From: Sphingobium quisquiliarum P25
Lineage (GTDB): Bacteria; Pseudomonadota; Alphaproteobacteria; Sphingomonadales; Sphingomonadaceae
Reading direction: 5' to 3'
Assembly: GCF_000445065.1 (NCBI RefSeq)
Contig: NZ_ATHO01000071.1
Location: 1-64,000 of the forward strand
DNA: 64,000 nucleotides
Every line of letters begins with the position of its first letter. Position 1 is the first letter of the stretch. The notes below the pieces were generated by a model, which made no database searches, was not told where the DNA came from, and saw nothing but the letters and a program-made list of their open reading frames with translations. The position numbers were made by a program, and so were the translations under genes. Below, in pieces: positions 7,898 through 53,446 of this stretch.

Positions 7898-10429
7898 ATG
7901 AAGACCTACACATATCCCGTTTTGGCTGCATTCCTGGCCAGCACGGCGCTGGCTTCCACAGCGGCTCTGGCGCAGACAACGGACACTAATCCGCAGGTTG
8001 CCCCCGAAATGGGCGAGATCGTGGTCACCGCCCAACGCCGTGCCGAATCAATCCAGGACACGCCCGTTTCCGTCACCGCTTTCAGCAATGAAAGCCTGCG
8101 CGAACAGAATATCTCCAGCGCGCAGGACCTGCTGGGAAAGGTTCCGTCCGTCATCGTCGGCCCCAACGGAACCCAGCGTGATGCGGAATCGATCACGCTG
8201 CGCGGCCAGGGCCAGACCTTCGGCGCGCCCGTCGGCGTCGTGAACTATTTCGCCGAAGTGCCGCTGATCCAGGGATCGGTTCTGGGCGACCAGGGCGGAC
8301 CGGGGCTATTCTTCGACCTTGAATCGCTCCAGGTGTTGCGCGGCCCGCAAGGAACGCTGTTCGGCCGCAACACGACAGGCGGCGCGCTGCTGGTCGGCCC
8401 CAAGCGGCCCACCCAGAATTTCGAGGGCTACATCCAGGGCCAATATGGCAACTATAATGATCGCGAATTCGAAGGCGCGATCAACATCCCGGTTGTGCCG
8501 GACATTCTGTCGATCCGTATCGGCGGCAAATACGCCAAGCGCGACGGTTTCACCAAGGATGTTGGGCCAGAGGCATTCGGCTTCACCGATGTCTGCGTCG
8601 CCAGCACGGTGGGATGCCTCGCCCCTGCTGGACGCGGGCCGGGCTTTGCTGGCAAGCGCTATGACGACCGCGACTATTGGACCGCGCGGATCGGGATATT
8701 GTTCACCCCTACCGATGGCGTTGAAAACTACCTCGTCGCCTACAAGACCAAGTCCGATACGAACGGCACCGGCACCTATCTGGAAGCGAGCAACGGAAAC
8801 AACGCGAATCTGGCTGGTCTCGCCGCGAACCTTGCCTATCTGCGTCCCTTCGTGCCGGCTCAATCCTTCAACCCCGCGATCATCCAGGGAATACTCGCGC
8901 GCCAGCGTGAGCTTGGCCCGCGTAAAGTTGCGCTTAACACCGACACCTTCTTCAAGGTCGATATCACCAGCGTGACGGACATTTTGAGCGTTAGGCTGAA
9001 TGACGCTCTGACCTTCCGCAACATCTTCGGCTACCAGCGGATGAAACAGAGTTTCGCCTGGGATCTGGACGGTTCGATCGCTCCGATTCTGGCGAACATC
9101 CCCGCGGTGGTGACGCCTGGCTTTGCTGCGCAATATCCTGAGTTGGGCGCTGCGGGCTCGTCCTACCAAGCCACCAATCTCAGCCTGATCACCGAGGAAC
9201 CGCAGATCCAGGGCAAGATGCTGGATGGCAAGCTCGACTTCGTGTTCGGCGGCTTCCTGTCGCACACCAAGCCCGAAGGGTTCCAGGGTACGGGATCGTT
9301 CAATGTCGGCAATCTTGGCGGCACATTCGCCAAGATCGACACCAGGAGCACGGCCGTCTACTTCCAGGCGACACTGGATCTCGGCACCTTCTCGCCCGCC
9401 CTCGACAATCTGAAGCTGACCGGCGGCTACCGGCATACCTGGGACACGATCAAGGGTTCGCGCATCGCGCCCGCCTTCGTCGTTATCCCGACCGCAAGCG
9501 CCAAGCTCGACACCAACGCGCCGACCTGGACCATTGGCCTGGACTATCAGCCGAACCGCGACCTGCTGCTGTTCGGACGGGTGACGCGCGGCTACAAGAG
9601 CGGCGGTTTCAACGCGAGCGGCCCCCGCGTCGAAGTGCTGACCTTCCAGCCCGAATATGTCACCAACTATGAAATCGGCGTGAAGAGTGATTTCAGGGTC
9701 GCCGACATGCCGGTCCGGCTTAACGTCTCTGCCTATAATCTCGACTATAAGGACATTCAGCGCGCCACCGCCGACAATGCACCCAACGGCCTTCCCCCGC
9801 CAGCCAGCGGCTTCGACAGCGGCTCTCGCGTGTTCAACGCGGAGTCTGCCCGCATCCGCGGCATCGAGGTGGAAGGCGTAATCCGGCCCGTCACCGGCCT
9901 CGAACTGTCCGGCAGCTACGCCTATACCGACGCGAAATATAAGAAGTACACGCTGATCGTCGCGGGTGATCCGCGCATCCGCTTCAAGGATAGCTGCGAC
10001 GGGCCAGTCGCACTACCGGCCTCTCCGGGTCAGACGGTCGCGCTCGATATGTCCTGCCTGCCCTTCCAGCATACGCCCAAGCATCAGTTCAACCTGAATG
10101 CGCGGTACAGCATGCCGCTGGGCGATGATGTCGGAACGCTGGTCGCCAATGCCGGCTACTCATGGGTTGGGACCAAATATTCGCTTCCCGTCTCGACCAT
10201 CAGGGACGAACCTGACGCGAAGATCGACTCTTTCGGCCTGCTTAACCTGTCTCTCGACTGGAATGGGCTGTTCGGGTCGAACTTCGACGCGCGCTTCTTC
10301 ATGACCAACGTCACGAACAAGCTGTACCGGATCAGCAGCACGAGCGCGAGCAGCGCGGGCACGGGCTTTACTGCCAGCATCTATGGCGAGCCCCGCATGT
10401 ACGGCACGTCGCTCCGCTATCACTTCTAG
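7898..10429 (+). CDS. TonB-dependent receptor
   Basis: An 843-residue outer-membrane receptor. A signal peptide ends at ...ALAQ, then comes a TonB-box-type start GEIVVTAQRRAESIQDT, a plug with LRGPQGTLFGRNTTGGAL, and a beta barrel ending in YHF with the terminal Phe of barrel proteins. It imports a large or scarce ligand with TonB energy. AGGGGAGAAG precedes the start. The genes behind it on the same strand (NTF2-like, PQQ enzyme, alkyl sulfatase) suggest a sulfate ester or related alcohol as ligand, which is inference. The plug is of the common sphingomonad catabolic type, not a clear siderophore or B12 receptor. Confidence 0.92.
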   Translation: MKTYTYPVLAAFLASTALASTAALAQTTDTNPQVAPEMGEIVVTAQRRAESIQDTPVSVTAFSNESLREQNISSAQDLLGKVPSVIVGPNGTQRDAESITLRGQGQTFGAPVGVVNYFAEVPLIQGSVLGDQGGPGLFFDLESLQVLRGPQGTLFGRNTTGGALLVGPKRPTQNFEGYIQGQYGNYNDREFEGAINIPVVPDILSIRIGGKYAKRDGFTKDVGPEAFGFTDVCVASTVGCLAPAGRGPGFAGKRYDDRDYWTARIGILFTPTDGVENYLVAYKTKSDTNGTGTYLEASNGNNANLAGLAANLAYLRPFVPAQSFNPAIIQGILARQRELGPRKVALNTDTFFKVDITSVTDILSVRLNDALTFRNIFGYQRMKQSFAWDLDGSIAPILANIPAVVTPGFAAQYPELGAAGSSYQATNLSLITEEPQIQGKMLDGKLDFVFGGFLSHTKPEGFQGTGSFNVGNLGGTFAKIDTRSTAVYFQATLDLGTFSPALDNLKLTGGYRHTWDTIKGSRIAPAFVVIPTASAKLDTNAPTWTIGLDYQPNRDLLLFGRVTRGYKSGGFNASGPRVEVLTFQPEYVTNYEIGVKSDFRVADMPVRLNVSAYNLDYKDIQRATADNAPNGLPPPASGFDSGSRVFNAESARIRGIEVEGVIRPVTGLELSGSYAYTDAKYKKYTLIVAGDPRIRFKDSCDGPVALPASPGQTVALDMSCLPFQHTPKHQFNLNARYSMPLGDDVGTLVANAGYSWVGTKYSLPVSTIRDEPDAKIDSFGLLNLSLDWNGLFGSNFDARFFMTNVTNKLYRISSTSASSAGTGFTASIYGEPRMYGTSLRYHF

Positions 10430-17104: not shown

Positions 17105-19384
17105 TCAGAATTCGACCCTGACCTCACCGCCGATCGTGCGCGGTTCGTTATAGGGCGTGGTGAAGCTCTGGAAGCCGTCGAAGGCCGTGCCGCCCACGCC
17201 GATCGTGAAGTCCGAACGGCGCCTGTTGTTGAACAGATTTTCGGCAAAGAGCGATACGCGCAGCTGCTTGCCAGCCGGTATCGGCCGCGTCCATGTAAGC
17301 CGCGCGTTGACGTTCCTTGTCGCCTGATTGGTATAAAGCTCATGGCCCGGCACCAACGGCCCGGCACCGGCGGAGGTGAACACCGCGCTCTGGTAAGTAT
17401 AGGCGCCATGAACCGCGAACGCATTGTCGCCTGCGCGCAGGAACGTCCAGTCGCCACTCAGTGTCAGCGAATGTTTCGGGACATAAGGCAGGGTGAAATA
17501 GCCAGCGACATTGTCACCCACGTTGAAAGGGGAGCTTGGATTGACCGCCGGATCGAAAATCGTTCCCGGCAAAGCGACGACCTGTTTCAGATCGCTTTTC
17601 AGATAGCCATAGGATGCGCGCAGCGAAAGATCGGGCGACGGTTGAAGCGTGGCATCGATCTCCACGCCTTTGATTTCGGCCTTACCCGCATTGGCCGAAG
17701 CGATAATGCTGGTATCGACCGGGTCCGCGCCGAAGATGATCTGGAGATCGTCAAACTTGTTCAGGAAGGCAGCTACGTTGAAGGTGAGCAACCGGTCGAA
17801 CAACTGCGACTTCAGCCCCACTTCATAAGCGGTAATCTTTTCCGGGCCGAACGTCTGGGTGAAATCCTTCGACAACTCGCTGGAACCGCCCGCCTTATAG
17901 GCTTTGGAGAAGCGGAAATAGGTCATCATCTGGGGCGTCCATTGCACGGCCAGGTTTGCCATCGGACTGAAATTGTTGAAGCGCTGGGAATTTGTGATGT
18001 TATCGTCCACCAGAGCGCCATTGATCGTCCTGTCACGCGACGCATCGCGAAGATCACGCGTGTAACGCCCGCCGACCGTCAACTTTATGCGATCATCGAA
18101 GACCGGCGGCGTCCAGGTCGATTGCGCATAGGCGGCGTAGGATTCCGATTTGGCGTGAATGACGGTTTGGGTCAGCTGCTCGGCGCCGAACAGCAGATAG
18201 CCAAGTGTCGTGTCGAAGGGGTGGTAACCACTTTCCTTGAAATAATAGAGGCCGCCGGTGAAATCGAGCCTGGACGTGATATCGCCGATCAGCTGGAATT
18301 CCTGCGTATATTGCTTTGTGCGATAATAATGCTGGCTTTCGACCGTCAGCGGAAAGAACGGCGTCGACTGTGCCACGCCATAATTGACGTCCTGCGTGGC
18401 GCGCGTTCCCCTATAGGCACTCAGCGAGCGGAGAAGAACGGCGTCCGACAATTGATATTCCAGCGTCAGCTGGTGATCCACGAATTTGGTGACGCTATAA
18501 TCCAGGTCCAGCGGCGCGTAGGTCCGGTCGCGATCAGCGCTGTAGCCCGGAATGGCTCCCACCAGTGCCGGGTTCACATAATAAGGCGGCGTCGATCGCA
18601 CGCGGCCCAGATCGAAGGCATAACGGACGGTGAAATCGTCCACCGGCTTCCATTCCGCCGCGATCCGTCCCGCAATCTGGCCGAACTCACCGAAGTTCAG
18701 TTGCGCGCCCGGATTTTTGACCCAGCCGTCCTTGCTCTTGTAGGAAATGGTTCCCTTGATCGCTAGGTTACCGAACGAAGGCAGATCGACGCTGCCCAGC
18801 GCTCGTACCAGATTGCGGCTGCCGAAGGACAGGGATGCGCTACCACCCCATTCGCCGGTCGGCTGTCGAGTGATGATGTTCACAGCGCCGCCGGTCGTGT
18901 TCCGCCCATAAAGCGTGCCCTGCGGCCCGCGTAGAACTTCGATCCGCTCCGGCTCGCCAAGGTCGAGCAGAGCGCCCTGCGGCCGGGCGATGTAGAAGCC
19001 ATCGATATAGACGCCGACGCCGCCATCGCGGGTGATCTGGCCGGGATCGTTATTTCCCTGGCCACGCATCGCAAAGGCCAGCGTGTCGGATGAGTTGGGA
19101 TAGGCGACGACATTCAGGCTGGGCGCGATCGCCGCCAGATTGGCGAGGCTGGTGACGCCCTGGCTTTGCAAGGTGTCGCTCTGTATCGCGGTGATCGCAA
19201 TAGGCACCGTCTGAAGCGCCTGCGCGCGGCGCTGGGCGGTGACGATGATCTCTCCGGGCGCGGGCATATCCACCGAAACCGGCTGAACCTGACCCTCTTG
19301 CGCATGGACCGGCACAGCAGCGGACAGCGCCATAGCCATCGCAGCGCCAGCCATCAAGCAGGCGCACTTATCCTGATGAGACAT
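17105..19384 (-). CDS. TonB-dependent receptor
   Basis: A 759-residue receptor. A signal peptide ends ...VPVHAQ, followed by GEIIVTAQRRAQALQTVP, a plug with LRGPQGTLYGRNTTGGAVNI, and a barrel ending EVRVEF with a terminal Phe. GGAGGGG lies ahead of the start. The gene downstream on this strand encodes an NAD(P)-binding protein, and a TetR gene lies upstream on the same strand. A TCGTG/CACGA pair (19546-19550, 19557-19561) in the 223-bp leader could be the regulator site. Close to the P450/F420 genes, it is the best candidate importer for their substrate. Confidence 0.92.
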   Translation of the reverse strand: MSHQDKCACLMAGAAMAMALSAAVPVHAQEGQVQPVSVDMPAPGEIIVTAQRRAQALQTVPIAITAIQSDTLQSQGVTSLANLAAIAPSLNVVAYPNSSDTLAFAMRGQGNNDPGQITRDGGVGVYIDGFYIARPQGALLDLGEPERIEVLRGPQGTLYGRNTTGGAVNIITRQPTGEWGGSASLSFGSRNLVRALGSVDLPSFGNLAIKGTISYKSKDGWVKNPGAQLNFGEFGQIAGRIAAEWKPVDDFTVRYAFDLGRVRSTPPYYVNPALVGAIPGYSADRDRTYAPLDLDYSVTKFVDHQLTLEYQLSDAVLLRSLSAYRGTRATQDVNYGVAQSTPFFPLTVESQHYYRTKQYTQEFQLIGDITSRLDFTGGLYYFKESGYHPFDTTLGYLLFGAEQLTQTVIHAKSESYAAYAQSTWTPPVFDDRIKLTVGGRYTRDLRDASRDRTINGALVDDNITNSQRFNNFSPMANLAVQWTPQMMTYFRFSKAYKAGGSSELSKDFTQTFGPEKITAYEVGLKSQLFDRLLTFNVAAFLNKFDDLQIIFGADPVDTSIIASANAGKAEIKGVEIDATLQPSPDLSLRASYGYLKSDLKQVVALPGTIFDPAVNPSSPFNVGDNVAGYFTLPYVPKHSLTLSGDWTFLRAGDNAFAVHGAYTYQSAVFTSAGAGPLVPGHELYTNQATRNVNARLTWTRPIPAGKQLRVSLFAENLFNNRRRSDFTIGVGGTAFDGFQSFTTPYNEPRTIGGEVRVEF

Positions 19385-48205: not shown

Positions 48206-48913
48206 ATGTTAGCCAGTTCTCTCTCGGATTGGGCGGCGCCCTGGACAACAGGAGAGAAACAGCGCGTGACGGCATATCGCCAGCCTCAGCAGGAACGATC
48301 ACGACGAACATTCGATGCGCTGCTCGACGCCACCGGCTATCTGCTGAGCGAGGTGGGAATCGAACGCATCTCGACCAACCTGATCTGCGAGCGGGCGCAG
48401 GTGACGCCACCCGCCCTCTATCGCTATTTCGATGATAAATATGCGATCATCCACGCCCTCGCCGAACGGCTGCTGCTGCGCCAGAACGACGCGCTGGTAG
48501 CCTGGGTGTCGGCCTATGCCGACAAGGGGCTGGAGGTGATCTCCAGCAAGCTGCATGAATTGCTTACGACCATGTCAATTATCACCGGCAGTCAACCAGG
48601 CGCGATCTGGATCATGCGCGCGCTACGGTCAGTGCCGGCGCTTACGCCCGTGCGGCTCCAGTCGCACAATTATGTCACCGATCTGCTCACCGACGTCTAC
48701 CACCATTATCTGCCGCATGCCGATCGCGAGACGATGCGCCGCCGTACCCGGCTAGCGGTGGAGATGGCCTATTCGATGGACGAGATGCTCAAGGAAGAGG
48801 ATTTCGACGAGGCAAGGTTGCTGGAGGATGCCGCCTTCATTTTCCGATCGATGATGTACTTCCCGGAATATGGCCTTGCTCCACCATCCAAGGAGATGCT
48901 GTCACAAAAGTGA
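48206..48913 (+). CDS. TetR/AcrR family regulator
   Basis: A 235-residue TetR protein. The HTH is at about residues 33-80 (TFDALLDATGYLLSEVGIER, then TPPALYRYFDDKYAIIHAL), with a helical ligand domain behind. The start could also be the GTG at 48266, which has AGGAGAG upstream and would remove a poorly conserved N-terminus (MLASSLSDWAAPW). A perfect palindrome precedes it. It lies between the receptor and the PHP-domain gene and probably controls both. The ligand is likely a breakdown product of the imported compound. Confidence 0.85.
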   Translation: MLASSLSDWAAPWTTGEKQRVTAYRQPQQERSRRTFDALLDATGYLLSEVGIERISTNLICERAQVTPPALYRYFDDKYAIIHALAERLLLRQNDALVAWVSAYADKGLEVISSKLHELLTTMSIITGSQPGAIWIMRALRSVPALTPVRLQSHNYVTDLLTDVYHHYLPHADRETMRRRTRLAVEMAYSMDEMLKEEDFDEARLLEDAAFIFRSMMYFPEYGLAPPSKEMLSQK

Positions 48914-48960
48914 TAGCGGTCGCTAGTATTTGCCCGGCAACATGGTTCGGAGGGCTCAAG

Positions 48961-50151
48961 ATGCCGGGTTTGTTGCGGGATGTAGTTCGGATGTGCTGGC
49001 TCGCCGGGACGGCGATGATCGCGGCGGTGCCCGCTGCGGCGCAGGACCCCAAGGCACCGGTGATTCCTCCTGTCGCCAGTCTCACAGACGGCATGTGGAT
49101 GAAGGGCGATCTGCATCTCCATTCCCGCCACAGCACCGATTCCTCGAACAATCCGGTGTCGGCGATCATCGGCTTTGCCGAACGCAACGGCTTTGATTTC
49201 CTAGCGATCACGGATCACGACAATCATGTACAGGGGGATGTCGCCAGTCACACTTGGCGCGACCCGGAGTTCCGGTCGGATCGCGTGGTGCTGCTCTACG
49301 GCGCGGAATGGACCACCGACCGCGGACACGGCAACATCTTTTCGGCCAGGCCTTATGACCACCAGAAGCTGTACGACCTGCGTGACGCTCGTGATGCGAA
49401 GATCCTGGCGGCCAAGCAGACGCTCGGCGTCCATCTCTCCGCCAATCATCCGGCTGCGGGCAAGGATCATTTCGGCTTCTCCTATGACATGGTCGATTCG
49501 ATCGAAATCTGGAATTCGGCGGTCTGGCCCCGGAACGCCGCCACACTGCTGATCTGGGACGACATGCTGCGATCGGGCCGGAAGATCGCCGGGCGCGGCG
49601 GCAGCGATTCTCACCACGGCGTTCCGCCCAGCCCGGACAAGGCGACCAGGAACAGCGCGGAGGCGACCGCCAATTATGTCGGTACGCCAACTACCTGGGT
49701 GTTCGCCAAAGCCCGGACACCCGCAGCGGTGGTCGAAGCGCTTACCAATGGCCGCGCCTGCGTCAGCGCCAATCCGCGCGGGCCTCGCGTCGAATTCTAT
49801 GGCGATCGCGACGGCGATGGGCAGATGGACATGATGATGGGCGACAATGTCCGCGCCAGCGGCAAGCCTGTGCACTTCGTGGTGAAGCTGACCGGCGGCG
49901 TGGTGGCGAACGCCAGCTATCGCGTGCTAGTGATCCGCGACGGTCAGCCGTTCGGCGAATTCGAAGCCAAGGGCGAGGCGCCAGTGGCGAGCTTCGAGGA
50001 CTCGCCGGCGGCGGATACGCGCAGCTATTACCGCGTCCAGGTCGAAGGGCCGCAGACCCCCTACCCTGAAGTGCCCAATTCGATGCCGCTGAGCGGAAAG
50101 ATGGTGGGTCTTTCCAATCCGATTTTCTTCAACTTCGATCCCGAATTCTAA
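48961..50151 (+). CDS. Exported CehA/McbA-type PHP-domain metallohydrolase
   Basis: A 396-residue protein with signal peptide (cleaved after ...VPAAAQ) and a PHP fold. Metal-site segments are GDLHLHSRHS (His52, His54), ITDHDNH (Asp85, His86, Asp87), HLSANHPAAG and RGGSDSHHG. The C-terminal 120 residues form a beta domain. CehA/McbA relatives include carbaryl hydrolase and glycerophosphoinositol phosphodiesterase, so it may cut a phosphodiester or carbamate. GGAGGG stands before the start. Convergent with the DUF4139 pair. Confidence 0.82.
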   Translation: MPGLLRDVVRMCWLAGTAMIAAVPAAAQDPKAPVIPPVASLTDGMWMKGDLHLHSRHSTDSSNNPVSAIIGFAERNGFDFLAITDHDNHVQGDVASHTWRDPEFRSDRVVLLYGAEWTTDRGHGNIFSARPYDHQKLYDLRDARDAKILAAKQTLGVHLSANHPAAGKDHFGFSYDMVDSIEIWNSAVWPRNAATLLIWDDMLRSGRKIAGRGGSDSHHGVPPSPDKATRNSAEATANYVGTPTTWVFAKARTPAAVVEALTNGRACVSANPRGPRVEFYGDRDGDGQMDMMMGDNVRASGKPVHFVVKLTGGVVANASYRVLVIRDGQPFGEFEAKGEAPVASFEDSPAADTRSYYRVQVEGPQTPYPEVPNSMPLSGKMVGLSNPIFFNFDPEF

Positions 50152-50199: not shown

Positions 50200-51798
50200 T
50201 CATCTTGAGCGTTGATAGCCGGTCGCCGGTTCCTGCGCCGTGGATTGGAAGCGGAGGCGGACTTCGCCATTCGCGGGGACGGTCATGACCCATACCCGCT
50301 TGCCCGGCTTGGCGGTGAGCCGCCCGCTGAAGCCGCTGAAGATCCGTCCGTCATTCAGCGGAAAGTCCATTTCGAAACGAACGGCGAAAGGGTTGGCGTT
50401 GCGCACGATCACGGTGTGGCGCAAATGGTCCTTGCCGTCCTCCGCTTTTTCTTCCTCCACGGTAAGATTGCTCGCGCGGGCGAAGGGCCATTCGACCTCC
50501 TCATCCACGGCCTTGTCGCCGGTCATGCTTTCACCAACATACATCCGCCCCCACGGGCTGTCTTGATAGAGGATGGCGCGTCCCGCCGGGAGCGGATCGC
50601 CCATGCCTTCCTCCTTCCCGTTGTGGAAGCGGAACAGCATTTGGGGATCGCCCGGCCCGTCCCAGCTCATTTGCGACCGGTAGATGAGGCTGCCCTTCAC
50701 CTCGTCCTTGACGAGGAAGGCCACCTGCTTCTGCGATCGCGCGGCGACCGTGACGGGAACGGGTATGCCGTACAACTTCAGATCCCCCAGATTTTCCGCC
50801 TTGGCGACCACGGATAAGGCGAGCGGCGCGGACTGCACAGCTTCCTGACGCCGCTGGCTGGTGACGACGATTTCGCCAGCATCCATCATGATGGCCATCG
50901 GCGGCGGAGGAGGAGGAGGCGCGGGAGGACCGTTGCCCACATCGCTCGTCTTACCGGCGGGCCAGCAATCGCTGAACCTGTTGAGATACTGCGCCTCTTG
51001 CCTGGCATTTTCCCCCGTATCATCGCGGCTATCCTTTGACCGGTTAACCCGTCCAGCCACCGCTGAGGCCGTTGCATCAGCAAAGCTGGTTTCGTCTGCG
51101 CTGGCAAGCGTCAACCAGCCGAGCAGATCAAGCGATTGCCCGTCTGAAGCCAGCGTGGCGACATAGGTGGCGTCCCAATCGAAACCGGTCGCGATATAGG
51201 CGAGCGTAATCGTCACGCTGCCGCCGGGCTGGTCCCTGGTCGTCATCGACAGCACCGGCTTGGCGGAAAGGGTTGGCGGCGCTTCTGGATAGAGGAGGGT
51301 CTGGCGCAAGCCGGAGCAATAAAGCGCCTCCACACCGCGCGGTGTCGTCACCACCAGCCGGTCGGCGGCGGAGCGGATAGTCGCGCTTTCCTCCAGCGTC
51401 CTGCCGGACGCCGGATCGGTACGGCGCAAAATCACCCGCTGACCGGTGAAGGCATCCACCAGCCCCTTTTGCGACAACAGCGCCGCGTCTCGATTGCGCT
51501 CCCTCGGGGGTGTGCCAAACAGGATGGCCGATTGCGGCACGATGCCGCTCGCCACCCCTTCGAACCGGATCACTGCTACGCCGGGCGGCAGCGTCACCGT
51601 GCGCGTCTCCGCCACCAGCGCGAAGGAGCCAGGATTGTCGCGATCAATGTCCCCCTCGCCCCTCTTAGGGTCGCGATAGAGGGTGACCGCCACCTTGTCC
51701 GGCGCGGCGGAGATGACCACGGGCGATTGCGCCCGCGCGGCCACGGGCACCCAGAGCAACAGGATCAACAGTGCCCAAACCAGCCCAAGGCGGCGCAT
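50200..51798 (-). CDS. DUF4139 protein with embedded TonB-box-like segment
   Basis: A 532-residue exported protein (signal peptide ending ...VAARAQ). The DUF4139 core is seen in TLAYIATGFDWDATYVATL, LGDLKLYGIPVPVTVAARSQ, KQVAFL and the C-terminal strands. Just before LGDLKLY there is a proline run (about 292-300) and then GEIVVTSQRRQEAVQSAPLA from Gly308, which looks like the start of a sphingomonad TonB receptor. The paralogue upstream (51806-53314) lacks this insert and has only a short linker. DUF4139 proteins are of unknown function. The gene starts 7 bp after its paralogue and shares its transcript. Confidence 0.8.
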   Translation of the reverse strand: MRRLGLVWALLILLLWVPVAARAQSPVVISAAPDKVAVTLYRDPKRGEGDIDRDNPGSFALVAETRTVTLPPGVAVIRFEGVASGIVPQSAILFGTPPRERNRDAALLSQKGLVDAFTGQRVILRRTDPASGRTLEESATIRSAADRLVVTTPRGVEALYCSGLRQTLLYPEAPPTLSAKPVLSMTTRDQPGGSVTITLAYIATGFDWDATYVATLASDGQSLDLLGWLTLASADETSFADATASAVAGRVNRSKDSRDDTGENARQEAQYLNRFSDCWPAGKTSDVGNGPPAPPPPPPPMAIMMDAGEIVVTSQRRQEAVQSAPLALSVVAKAENLGDLKLYGIPVPVTVAARSQKQVAFLVKDEVKGSLIYRSQMSWDGPGDPQMLFRFHNGKEEGMGDPLPAGRAILYQDSPWGRMYVGESMTGDKAVDEEVEWPFARASNLTVEEEKAEDGKDHLRHTVIVRNANPFAVRFEMDFPLNDGRIFSGFSGRLTAKPGKRVWVMTVPANGEVRLRFQSTAQEPATGYQRSR

Positions 51799-51805
51799 GA
51801 GGCGC

Positions 51806-53314
51806 TTACCAGGGCGTGAGGAAAGTGGCGGTCAGTTCGGCCCTGCCATTGGCGGGCACCGGTACGACCCAGCGCCTGGAGTCGGCATCCTCCTGCACGC
51901 CCTTGATGCTCTCCTCCGGGACGCGCAGGTCGCGCCATCCCCACCAGCGGGCGAGTCCAGACTGGACCACGTCGACTTTCACCGGCGCCGGTTTCGCATT
52001 GGTGACGATGTAGCGCATCTGGGTACGGTAATATTTCTGCGGCCGCTCGACCATGCCTTCCACCTTGGTGCCGTCGCGGTAGGTGACGCGCCAGCGCTCC
52101 GACTGTGTCCATTCGTCGCTGGTAATGACGTCGCGCTTCTCCACCACAGGTTGCACCTTCACATCGAAGGCGTCGCCGGTGTGCAGCGCCAAGGTGGAGC
52201 CGCCCGGCGTGTGCGGGATAGCGCTTTCGCCAACAAACTGGGCTTGCCCGCGCGTATCGCGCATATAGACGCGCACCGTGCCCGCCGGCAGAGCAGCACC
52301 GATGCCAGCGGCCCTGGCATTGGAGAATTTGAGCACCGATGCGGCGCTTTCCGCCTCGCCCTTGCTCTCCATCCAGCCGTTGCGAAATTCATATCCGCGC
52401 TCCGCCGGGACGCCCGACGCGTCCAGGAAGCTCACCTGTTTGGTCTGGGCGTTGGCGATGGCAGTGCGACCGTCGATCGGATAGACGTGGAAGTCGCCCA
52501 ACTGCTCGCCGCCGTCGCTTTCGGTGCCTAGCTGGTTGCCGCGTGGCCCCGGCCGTCCTCTATTATAGCCATCATAGCGTTGCTGAACCTGCCCCACTTC
52601 CCCGGCCACGAGCAGCGTGCGGGCGTTCGCGAAGGTCGTTCCGGTCCTGTTGTTGAGGGTGATCCACCCCTGCATGTCCAGCTCGCCCGCTTTCTCGTCG
52701 AACAGCGCAACATAGTCGGATTTCCAGCTCATCCCCGGCGTCAGATAGCTGAGCGTCACGAGCCGCGCGCCGCCTTGCTGTGTATCCATCGTCACGCTGA
52801 GCGTCGGGCGCGCGCGCAGGTTCGGCGGAATGGACGAAAATATGACCCGCACCGGCAGGCCGTCGTCACGCAGCACCTCTATGCGGTCGCCGATCTTCAG
52901 CACGACGCCGCCATTAGCCGCCAGTACCGTCGCCTGCTCCCGCGTCTCCACGCCGGTCGCCGGATTGGTCCGCAGGAGGGTGATGGTCTGCCCCACCGCC
53001 TTTTCCATCAGTGACGCGGGGGACAGCAGGTCATAGTCGAAATTCTGCTCGACGATGCCGACGCCCTCGCCCGACAGCGTCACCGTTTCCGGCCGGATGC
53101 GCGCGGAAACATCGGGAAACTCCTGCCGCGAACGCCCGGACGGCAGGGCCATTCTACGCACGTCCTGCACCAGCGCGAGGTCATTATTATAGATGGTGAC
53201 GGACACGTCGCCCTGTGCGCTGGACGCCGAAGTCGCGTCAGCAGATGTCTGGGCGGAAAGCACTTGCGGGGCCAAGAGGGCGGTCGGCATCAACATGAGA
53301 TAATTCAGCCGCAT
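51806..53314 (-). CDS. DUF4139 family protein
   Basis: A 502-residue exported protein (MRLNYLMLMPTALLAPQVLS then AQ). N-terminal VSVTIYNNDLALVQDVRRM is the typical DUF4139/DUF4140 opening. LSYLTPGMSWKSDYVALFDE, LGDFHVYPIDGRTAIANAQ, KQVSFLD and the end RAELTATFLTPW follow. Unknown function; probably an envelope beta-protein. GAAGGGGGGCTCT stands before 53314, so a longer frame to 53407 is not needed. First of two tandem paralogues, 132 bp behind the receptor at 53447, so the three may be linked. Confidence 0.8.
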   Translation of the reverse strand: MRLNYLMLMPTALLAPQVLSAQTSADATSASSAQGDVSVTIYNNDLALVQDVRRMALPSGRSRQEFPDVSARIRPETVTLSGEGVGIVEQNFDYDLLSPASLMEKAVGQTITLLRTNPATGVETREQATVLAANGGVVLKIGDRIEVLRDDGLPVRVIFSSIPPNLRARPTLSVTMDTQQGGARLVTLSYLTPGMSWKSDYVALFDEKAGELDMQGWITLNNRTGTTFANARTLLVAGEVGQVQQRYDGYNRGRPGPRGNQLGTESDGGEQLGDFHVYPIDGRTAIANAQTKQVSFLDASGVPAERGYEFRNGWMESKGEAESAASVLKFSNARAAGIGAALPAGTVRVYMRDTRGQAQFVGESAIPHTPGGSTLALHTGDAFDVKVQPVVEKRDVITSDEWTQSERWRVTYRDGTKVEGMVERPQKYYRTQMRYIVTNAKPAPVKVDVVQSGLARWWGWRDLRVPEESIKGVQEDADSRRWVVPVPANGRAELTATFLTPW

Positions 53315-53446
53315 AGAGCCCCCCTTCTCAGTCTCCGCTGAACATGCCCCAAAAGGGTAAGCCATTCCAGAGGCATATAGCTGGGCTGGCGCAACAGGAT
53401 GCGCCAATAGCCCCTCCCGTTACCGGCATGTAGCTCGCCAGTGCGA

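Follow-up and report, generated by a model that had tools for sequence, protein, structure and literature searches.

The 532-residue protein encoded on the minus strand at 50200..51798 of the window (the whole 64,000-nucleotide stretch of Sphingobium quisquiliarum P25 DNA that was analysed) carries the motif GEIVVTSQRR in a segment that, on balance, is probably a TonB-docking arm on a resident non-receptor envelope protein; docking itself, the transfer of force and a complex with the partner protein are what we infer from sequence. The relevant features are as follows.

50200..51798, minus strand: CDS of the box-bearing, DUF4139-related, predicted periplasmic protein, 532 aa (sequence; Pfam cut-off not reached)
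50836..50988, minus strand: disordered arm, residues 271-321 (AlphaFold2 model)
50899..50928, minus strand: proline run PPAPPPPPPP, residues 291-300 (sequence)
50848..50877, minus strand: TonB-box-like motif GEIVVTSQRR, residues 308-317 (sequence and family-wide conservation)
50806..50850, minus strand: plug-like continuation RQEAVQSAPLALSVV, residues 317-331 (likeness to the receptor plug start REERLQDVPIAVTAV)
50770..50790, minus strand: LGDLKLY, residues 337-343 (near-invariant alignment columns; a strand in the model)
about 51806..53407, minus strand: partner CDS, a box-less DUF4139-like paralogue (sequence; homology to the box protein)

Residues ~1-24 form, as judged by eye, a signal-peptide-like N-terminus, by which the protein is predicted to be periplasmic. 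After GEIVVTSQRR it runs on as QEAVQSAPLALSVVAKAEN as far as LGDLKLY, where the folded second half restarts in the AlphaFold2 model. The same signature is found behind the signal peptides of receptors elsewhere in the genome and in the window, where one receptor at 8018 (+) has GEIVVTAQRRAESIQDTPVSVT and another at 19229 (-) has GEIIVTAQRRAQALQTVPIAIT. An earlier sequence-only reading of this DNA had noted that the motif nearly matches the signature of these two receptors, that a proline run lies upstream and LGDLKLY downstream of it, and that the adjacent paralogue has a mere short linker at the site. All three observations were borne out.

The TonB boxes of receptors are flexible stretches that pair with the C-terminal domain of TonB by beta-augmentation, contributing an extra strand to it (PMC11658791). 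TonB docking is the simplest meaning of such a receptor box ligand on a disordered periplasmic arm. In the mechanism that we propose, a periplasmic, beta-rich DUF4139-related protein would be made together with its box-less partner, and a flexible, proline-rich arm between its two folded halves would present the TonB box; the arm would tether the protein, and perhaps the partner too, to the Ton complex, and Ton force would act on the tethered protein. Five TonB_C proteins are encoded in the genome, so that a dedicated TonB is possible.

Conservation of the box

Relatives were drawn from named genomes, 200 family genomes, class and phylum samples and further stretches, and members were assigned by the higher score against a box-clade or a partner profile. 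Excluded from the counts were L152, L204 and L205, in which the arm is masked (runs of N begin within or near it), L016, which is cut off, and the distant L019 and L020. A relaxed IVVT[GA]x[R/K]-type box was present at the arm position in 115 of the 118 intact box-clade members; 114 of these belong to the 117 members with a located linker, and the remaining one, L202, has no located anchor and reads ITVTGAR. Degenerate boxes were seen in L174 and L187 (IAVTGAR, IEVTAAR). The sole box-less member of the 118, L138 (1495-3057), keeps the proline-rich arm, and it is counted against docking.

The strict motif occurred in 103 of 117 linkers, compared with a mean of 0.4 and a maximum of 5 across 1000 shuffles, and was found nowhere in 155 partner or other DUF4139-like proteins. 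The relaxed motif turned up by chance somewhere in 43 of these 155, so for the relaxed pattern only position is informative. A survey of DUF4139 homologues for the insert had been suggested by the sequence-only reading, which allowed that the insert might be absent from all close orthologues; the box was present in close and distant orthologues alike.

Information content was 3.0-4.2 bits at I-V-V-T-[GA], 3.3 at R and ~1 in the nearest flanks, giving a conserved core of I-V-V-T-[GA]-x-[RK] among almost random neighbouring columns. Conservation thus extends beyond the classical pentapeptide to [GA]x[RK], which might suit a reader other than TonB, such as a periplasmic chaperone, protease or assembly factor that reads receptor N-termini. 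Such a factor seems rather unlikely, given that TonB is the only well-described partner of the motif in receptors (PMC11658791).

The box was retained despite shifts in linker length and in the position of the proline run, which lay ahead of the box in 83 members, only behind it in 9, and was not recognised in 22. One box-clade member, L173, has two boxes. Between members, the first and second positions of the box codons showed 0.08 differences per site, a figure that is partly built in because the members compared were picked by amino-acid motif. This does not apply to the 0.55 differences per site at third positions, nor to the 87 distinct 15-mers among 103 box sequences. In the flanks of the box both codon classes were saturated (~0.67 differences per site). 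The box is probably retained by selection.

These measurements bear on the suggestion that the segment is a relic or a chance product, that is, a piece of receptor that was captured and has no function, or a low-complexity linker that is prone to beta structure and likewise has none. Decay of the plug-like part, loss of the box in L138 and the several decay stages of the fragments held by VWA proteins (below) would fit this, but it is made very improbable by the number of strict-motif linkers relative to shuffling and by the nearly fixed first and second codon positions (conditioned on the motif) beside variable third positions and saturated flanks.

Structure and family membership

The AlphaFold2 run on 44 sequences gave a mean pLDDT of 81 and a pTM of 0.70. 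The model consists of beta-rich halves and a disordered segment at 271-321 that contains the proline run and the box, with pLDDT under 50 for residues 271-292 and 297-321. The concern raised earlier that the insert might be buried in the fold did not hold, since AlphaFold2 leaves the arm disordered. The arm has a hydrophobic stretch of the [DE]x-I-V-V-T type and is predicted from pLDDT to be a flexible exposed segment, as expected of a TonB box. The mature part of box-clade members contains 2-4 cysteines; C161 and C278 are invariant across the aligned sequences, and a disulphide may lie at the arm's base. Of the 155 partners and others, 148 have no cysteines in this part.

The arm sequence gave no match to solved structures at E 10. 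A weak fold match was obtained to oligosaccharyltransferase subunit 1 (Foldseek E 2e-6, TM 0.13), and the C-terminal sandwich resembled glycosidase and carbohydrate-binding domains (Z up to 9.2 over ~80 residues). Assignment of a function from these matches was rejected because they involve common sandwich folds.

The protein had been called a DUF4139 protein in the sequence-only reading. The window protein gave no Pfam match at E 1, and at the curated PF13598 (DUF4139) cut-off of 31.8 bits there was no match to it and no hit in the genome. At E 0.01 or better, PF13598 matched 9 of 44 orthologues (best 2.5e-6) and 44 of 47 partners, and the box protein and its partner are homologous. We therefore describe the protein as related to DUF4139 and do not file it as a member; the earlier name draws its support from relatives and from the homology with the partner, and does not extend to the window protein itself. 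The likeness to DUF4139/DUF4140 proteins (PF13598, PF13600) lies in the PF13598 matches of orthologues and partners, whereas the arm and conserved cysteines of the box clade are missing from nearly all partners. Neither the TBDT plug domain (PF07715) nor the beta barrel (PF00593) was detected in the box protein at E 1, and the arm itself had no plug match.

Origin of the arm

The residues after the box resemble the receptor plug start, which points to an arm derived from a captured receptor N-terminus. In the window protein, RQEAVQSAPLALSVV matched REERLQDVPIAVTAV, the plug-start consensus of 45 receptors, with a z of 4.2 against shuffles, and among 73 orthologues 48% gave a plug-start match with p < 0.05 when their post-box residues were compared with shuffled copies of themselves. 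The tblastn searches with the box peptide gave E 9e-6 (59% over 27 aa) for same-genome receptors and E 1.2e-5 (50% over 24 aa) for the window receptor at 19.2 kb. Recent gene conversion from the receptors was rejected, the longest exact DNA match being 15 bases. In a tree built without the linker, the box members were separated from all others by a branch with 100% SH-aLRT support; the partner members and the other members were each grouped likewise with 99% SH-aLRT.

The arm is probably a receptor N-terminus that was captured long ago, box and plug start together. The simplest account is a single old capture after duplication, after which the plug part deteriorated in many lineages and the box was kept; where the plug-like part is gone, the box may have arisen by convergence. 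The sequence-only reading had offered a recombination scar as one explanation. As a local event this was rejected, on the grounds of the one well-supported clade, the survival of the box through linker reshuffling and the lack of a DNA trace of recent copying. Its other explanation, an arm grafted onto an unrelated envelope protein, stood insofar as the segment has relatives among receptor N-termini, the box is conserved and the arm is predicted to be disordered.

Other carriers of the box

The window genome was surveyed by pattern searches and inspected stretches that were classified by eye, using a pattern without serine at position 5. The IVVT[AG] pattern was found at 52 places, compared with 11 for the reversed control; exported matches to the [A/G] pattern looked like receptor N-termini and the remainder like chance hits. 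In genome G015, the exported box carriers among the places inspected were receptors, the boxed DUF4139-like family and one VWA protein only.

Among Sphingomonadaceae VWA (YfbK-like, PF12450) lipoproteins, 14 of 16 had the box beside proline runs; in some of them its sequence was looser. They share this arrangement with the DUF4139-related protein, but their fold is unrelated and their arm is N-terminal, behind a lipobox-like cysteine (by eye). One of them, L220, contains a 49-residue stretch that is 71% identical (E 2e-18) to the N-terminus of a receptor from another genome. L220, L212, L211, L222 and L334, the last from family f63, appear to preserve, beside long proline runs, receptor N-termini that were captured and have since decayed to different extents, the most reduced retaining nothing but the box, and L215 and L224 have two boxes, one either side of the proline run. 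In the phylum sample, all three f63 VWA proteins had the box or a degenerate form, f63 being also among the few other families with a boxed DUF4139-like protein; a further VWA member of family f1, L338, had no box, and none was found in 26 VWA proteins outside f1 and f63. Membrane-tethered VWA proteins with a fold likened to YfbK were proposed as force transducers in a 2025 study (PMC12204202), a role that differs from that of a TonB-box arm.

The paired boxes of L173, L215 and L224, together with the same box conservation, would also fit an arm that binds TonB without force, either limiting or buffering the TonB free for receptors or blocking TonB-dependent bacteriocins or phages. We consider this unlikely, as a plain sink would have no need of the conserved folded body, the partner gene and the paired cysteines.

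Descriptions of TonB boxes concern receptors and the bacteriocins that parasitise them. Because the box is conserved in nearly all relatives and present in an unrelated envelope protein, the Ton motor may have undescribed clients. It is conceivable, and we suggest it tentatively, that in sphingomonads and some relatives resident non-receptor proteins (DUF4139-related and VWA) acquired the N-termini of receptors and serve as genuine clients of the motor. Selection for the box in two unrelated families of resident envelope proteins would broaden the known targets of the motor, would bear on the keeping of several TonB proteins by sphingomonads, and would offer a lead to the function of two families without one; Ton energy would, if this is true, be spent on something besides receptor uptake.

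Comparison with known systems

The box protein has the [DE]xIVVT[AG]x[RK] sequence of the TBDT TonB box, on a flexible periplasmic segment and often with plug-start residues next, but its copy is internal, between folded halves, and is accompanied by no plug or barrel domain. The TonB boxes of receptors and bacteriocins lie in N-terminal regions, and the internal position is counted against docking.

Group B colicins, pyocins and klebicin C are likewise not receptors, and their TonB box, too, occupies an unstructured region (PMC11658791, PMC7593965). They are secreted bacteriocins, whereas the box protein, whose N-terminus is signal-like and whose gene has a stable place on the chromosome near recA, appears to be resident. 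In a sequence-only search, no Pfam domain of the colicin receptor-binding or killing type was found in it. The signal-like N-terminus and the constant partner gene argue against a bacteriocin of the group B colicin type. The phosphotriesterase of Sphingobium fuliginis, another non-receptor protein, was reported to bind ExbB/ExbD and TonB; the passage that reports this describes no TonB box for it (PMC7142613). In the open-licence literature searched, no DUF4139 or VWA protein was found described as having a TonB box, nor were TonB-box-like motifs of such a kind found elsewhere.

Partner gene and genomic setting

Partner and box gene shared a strand, with the partner upstream, at all 121 loci examined, and in the window the partner's stop lies 7 bases ahead of the box-protein ATG. 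recA was close to the pair in 41 of 76 relatives and a receptor-like gene was near it in just 1 of 76, which indicates that the box gene is an old chromosomal resident outside receptor loci. A genomic link of the pair to receptors was rejected on the latter count, and the receptors flanking the pair in the window look incidental. No match to the box protein was obtained in 75 of 200 family genomes, and some others gave a weak receptor-like match only, which implies that the system is dispensable. Whether A or G stands at box position 5 showed no correlation with same-genome receptors (p = 0.34; 43 genomes, tabulated by hand). This result, the dispensability and the rarity of nearby receptor genes are all counted against docking. 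In favour of a TonB-docking arm are the conservation of the box, its predicted disorder, the relation to receptor N-termini, the single clade, the constant partner and the boxed VWA lipoproteins.

In about half of the relatives (L150-L209), the DUF4139-like pair is found near recA with alaS beyond, the gene names having been assigned by eye. In the window, the gene at 48910-50151 (+), between a receptor and the pair, encodes a protein that by eye resembles PHP-type phosphoesterases and has a signal-like N-terminus.
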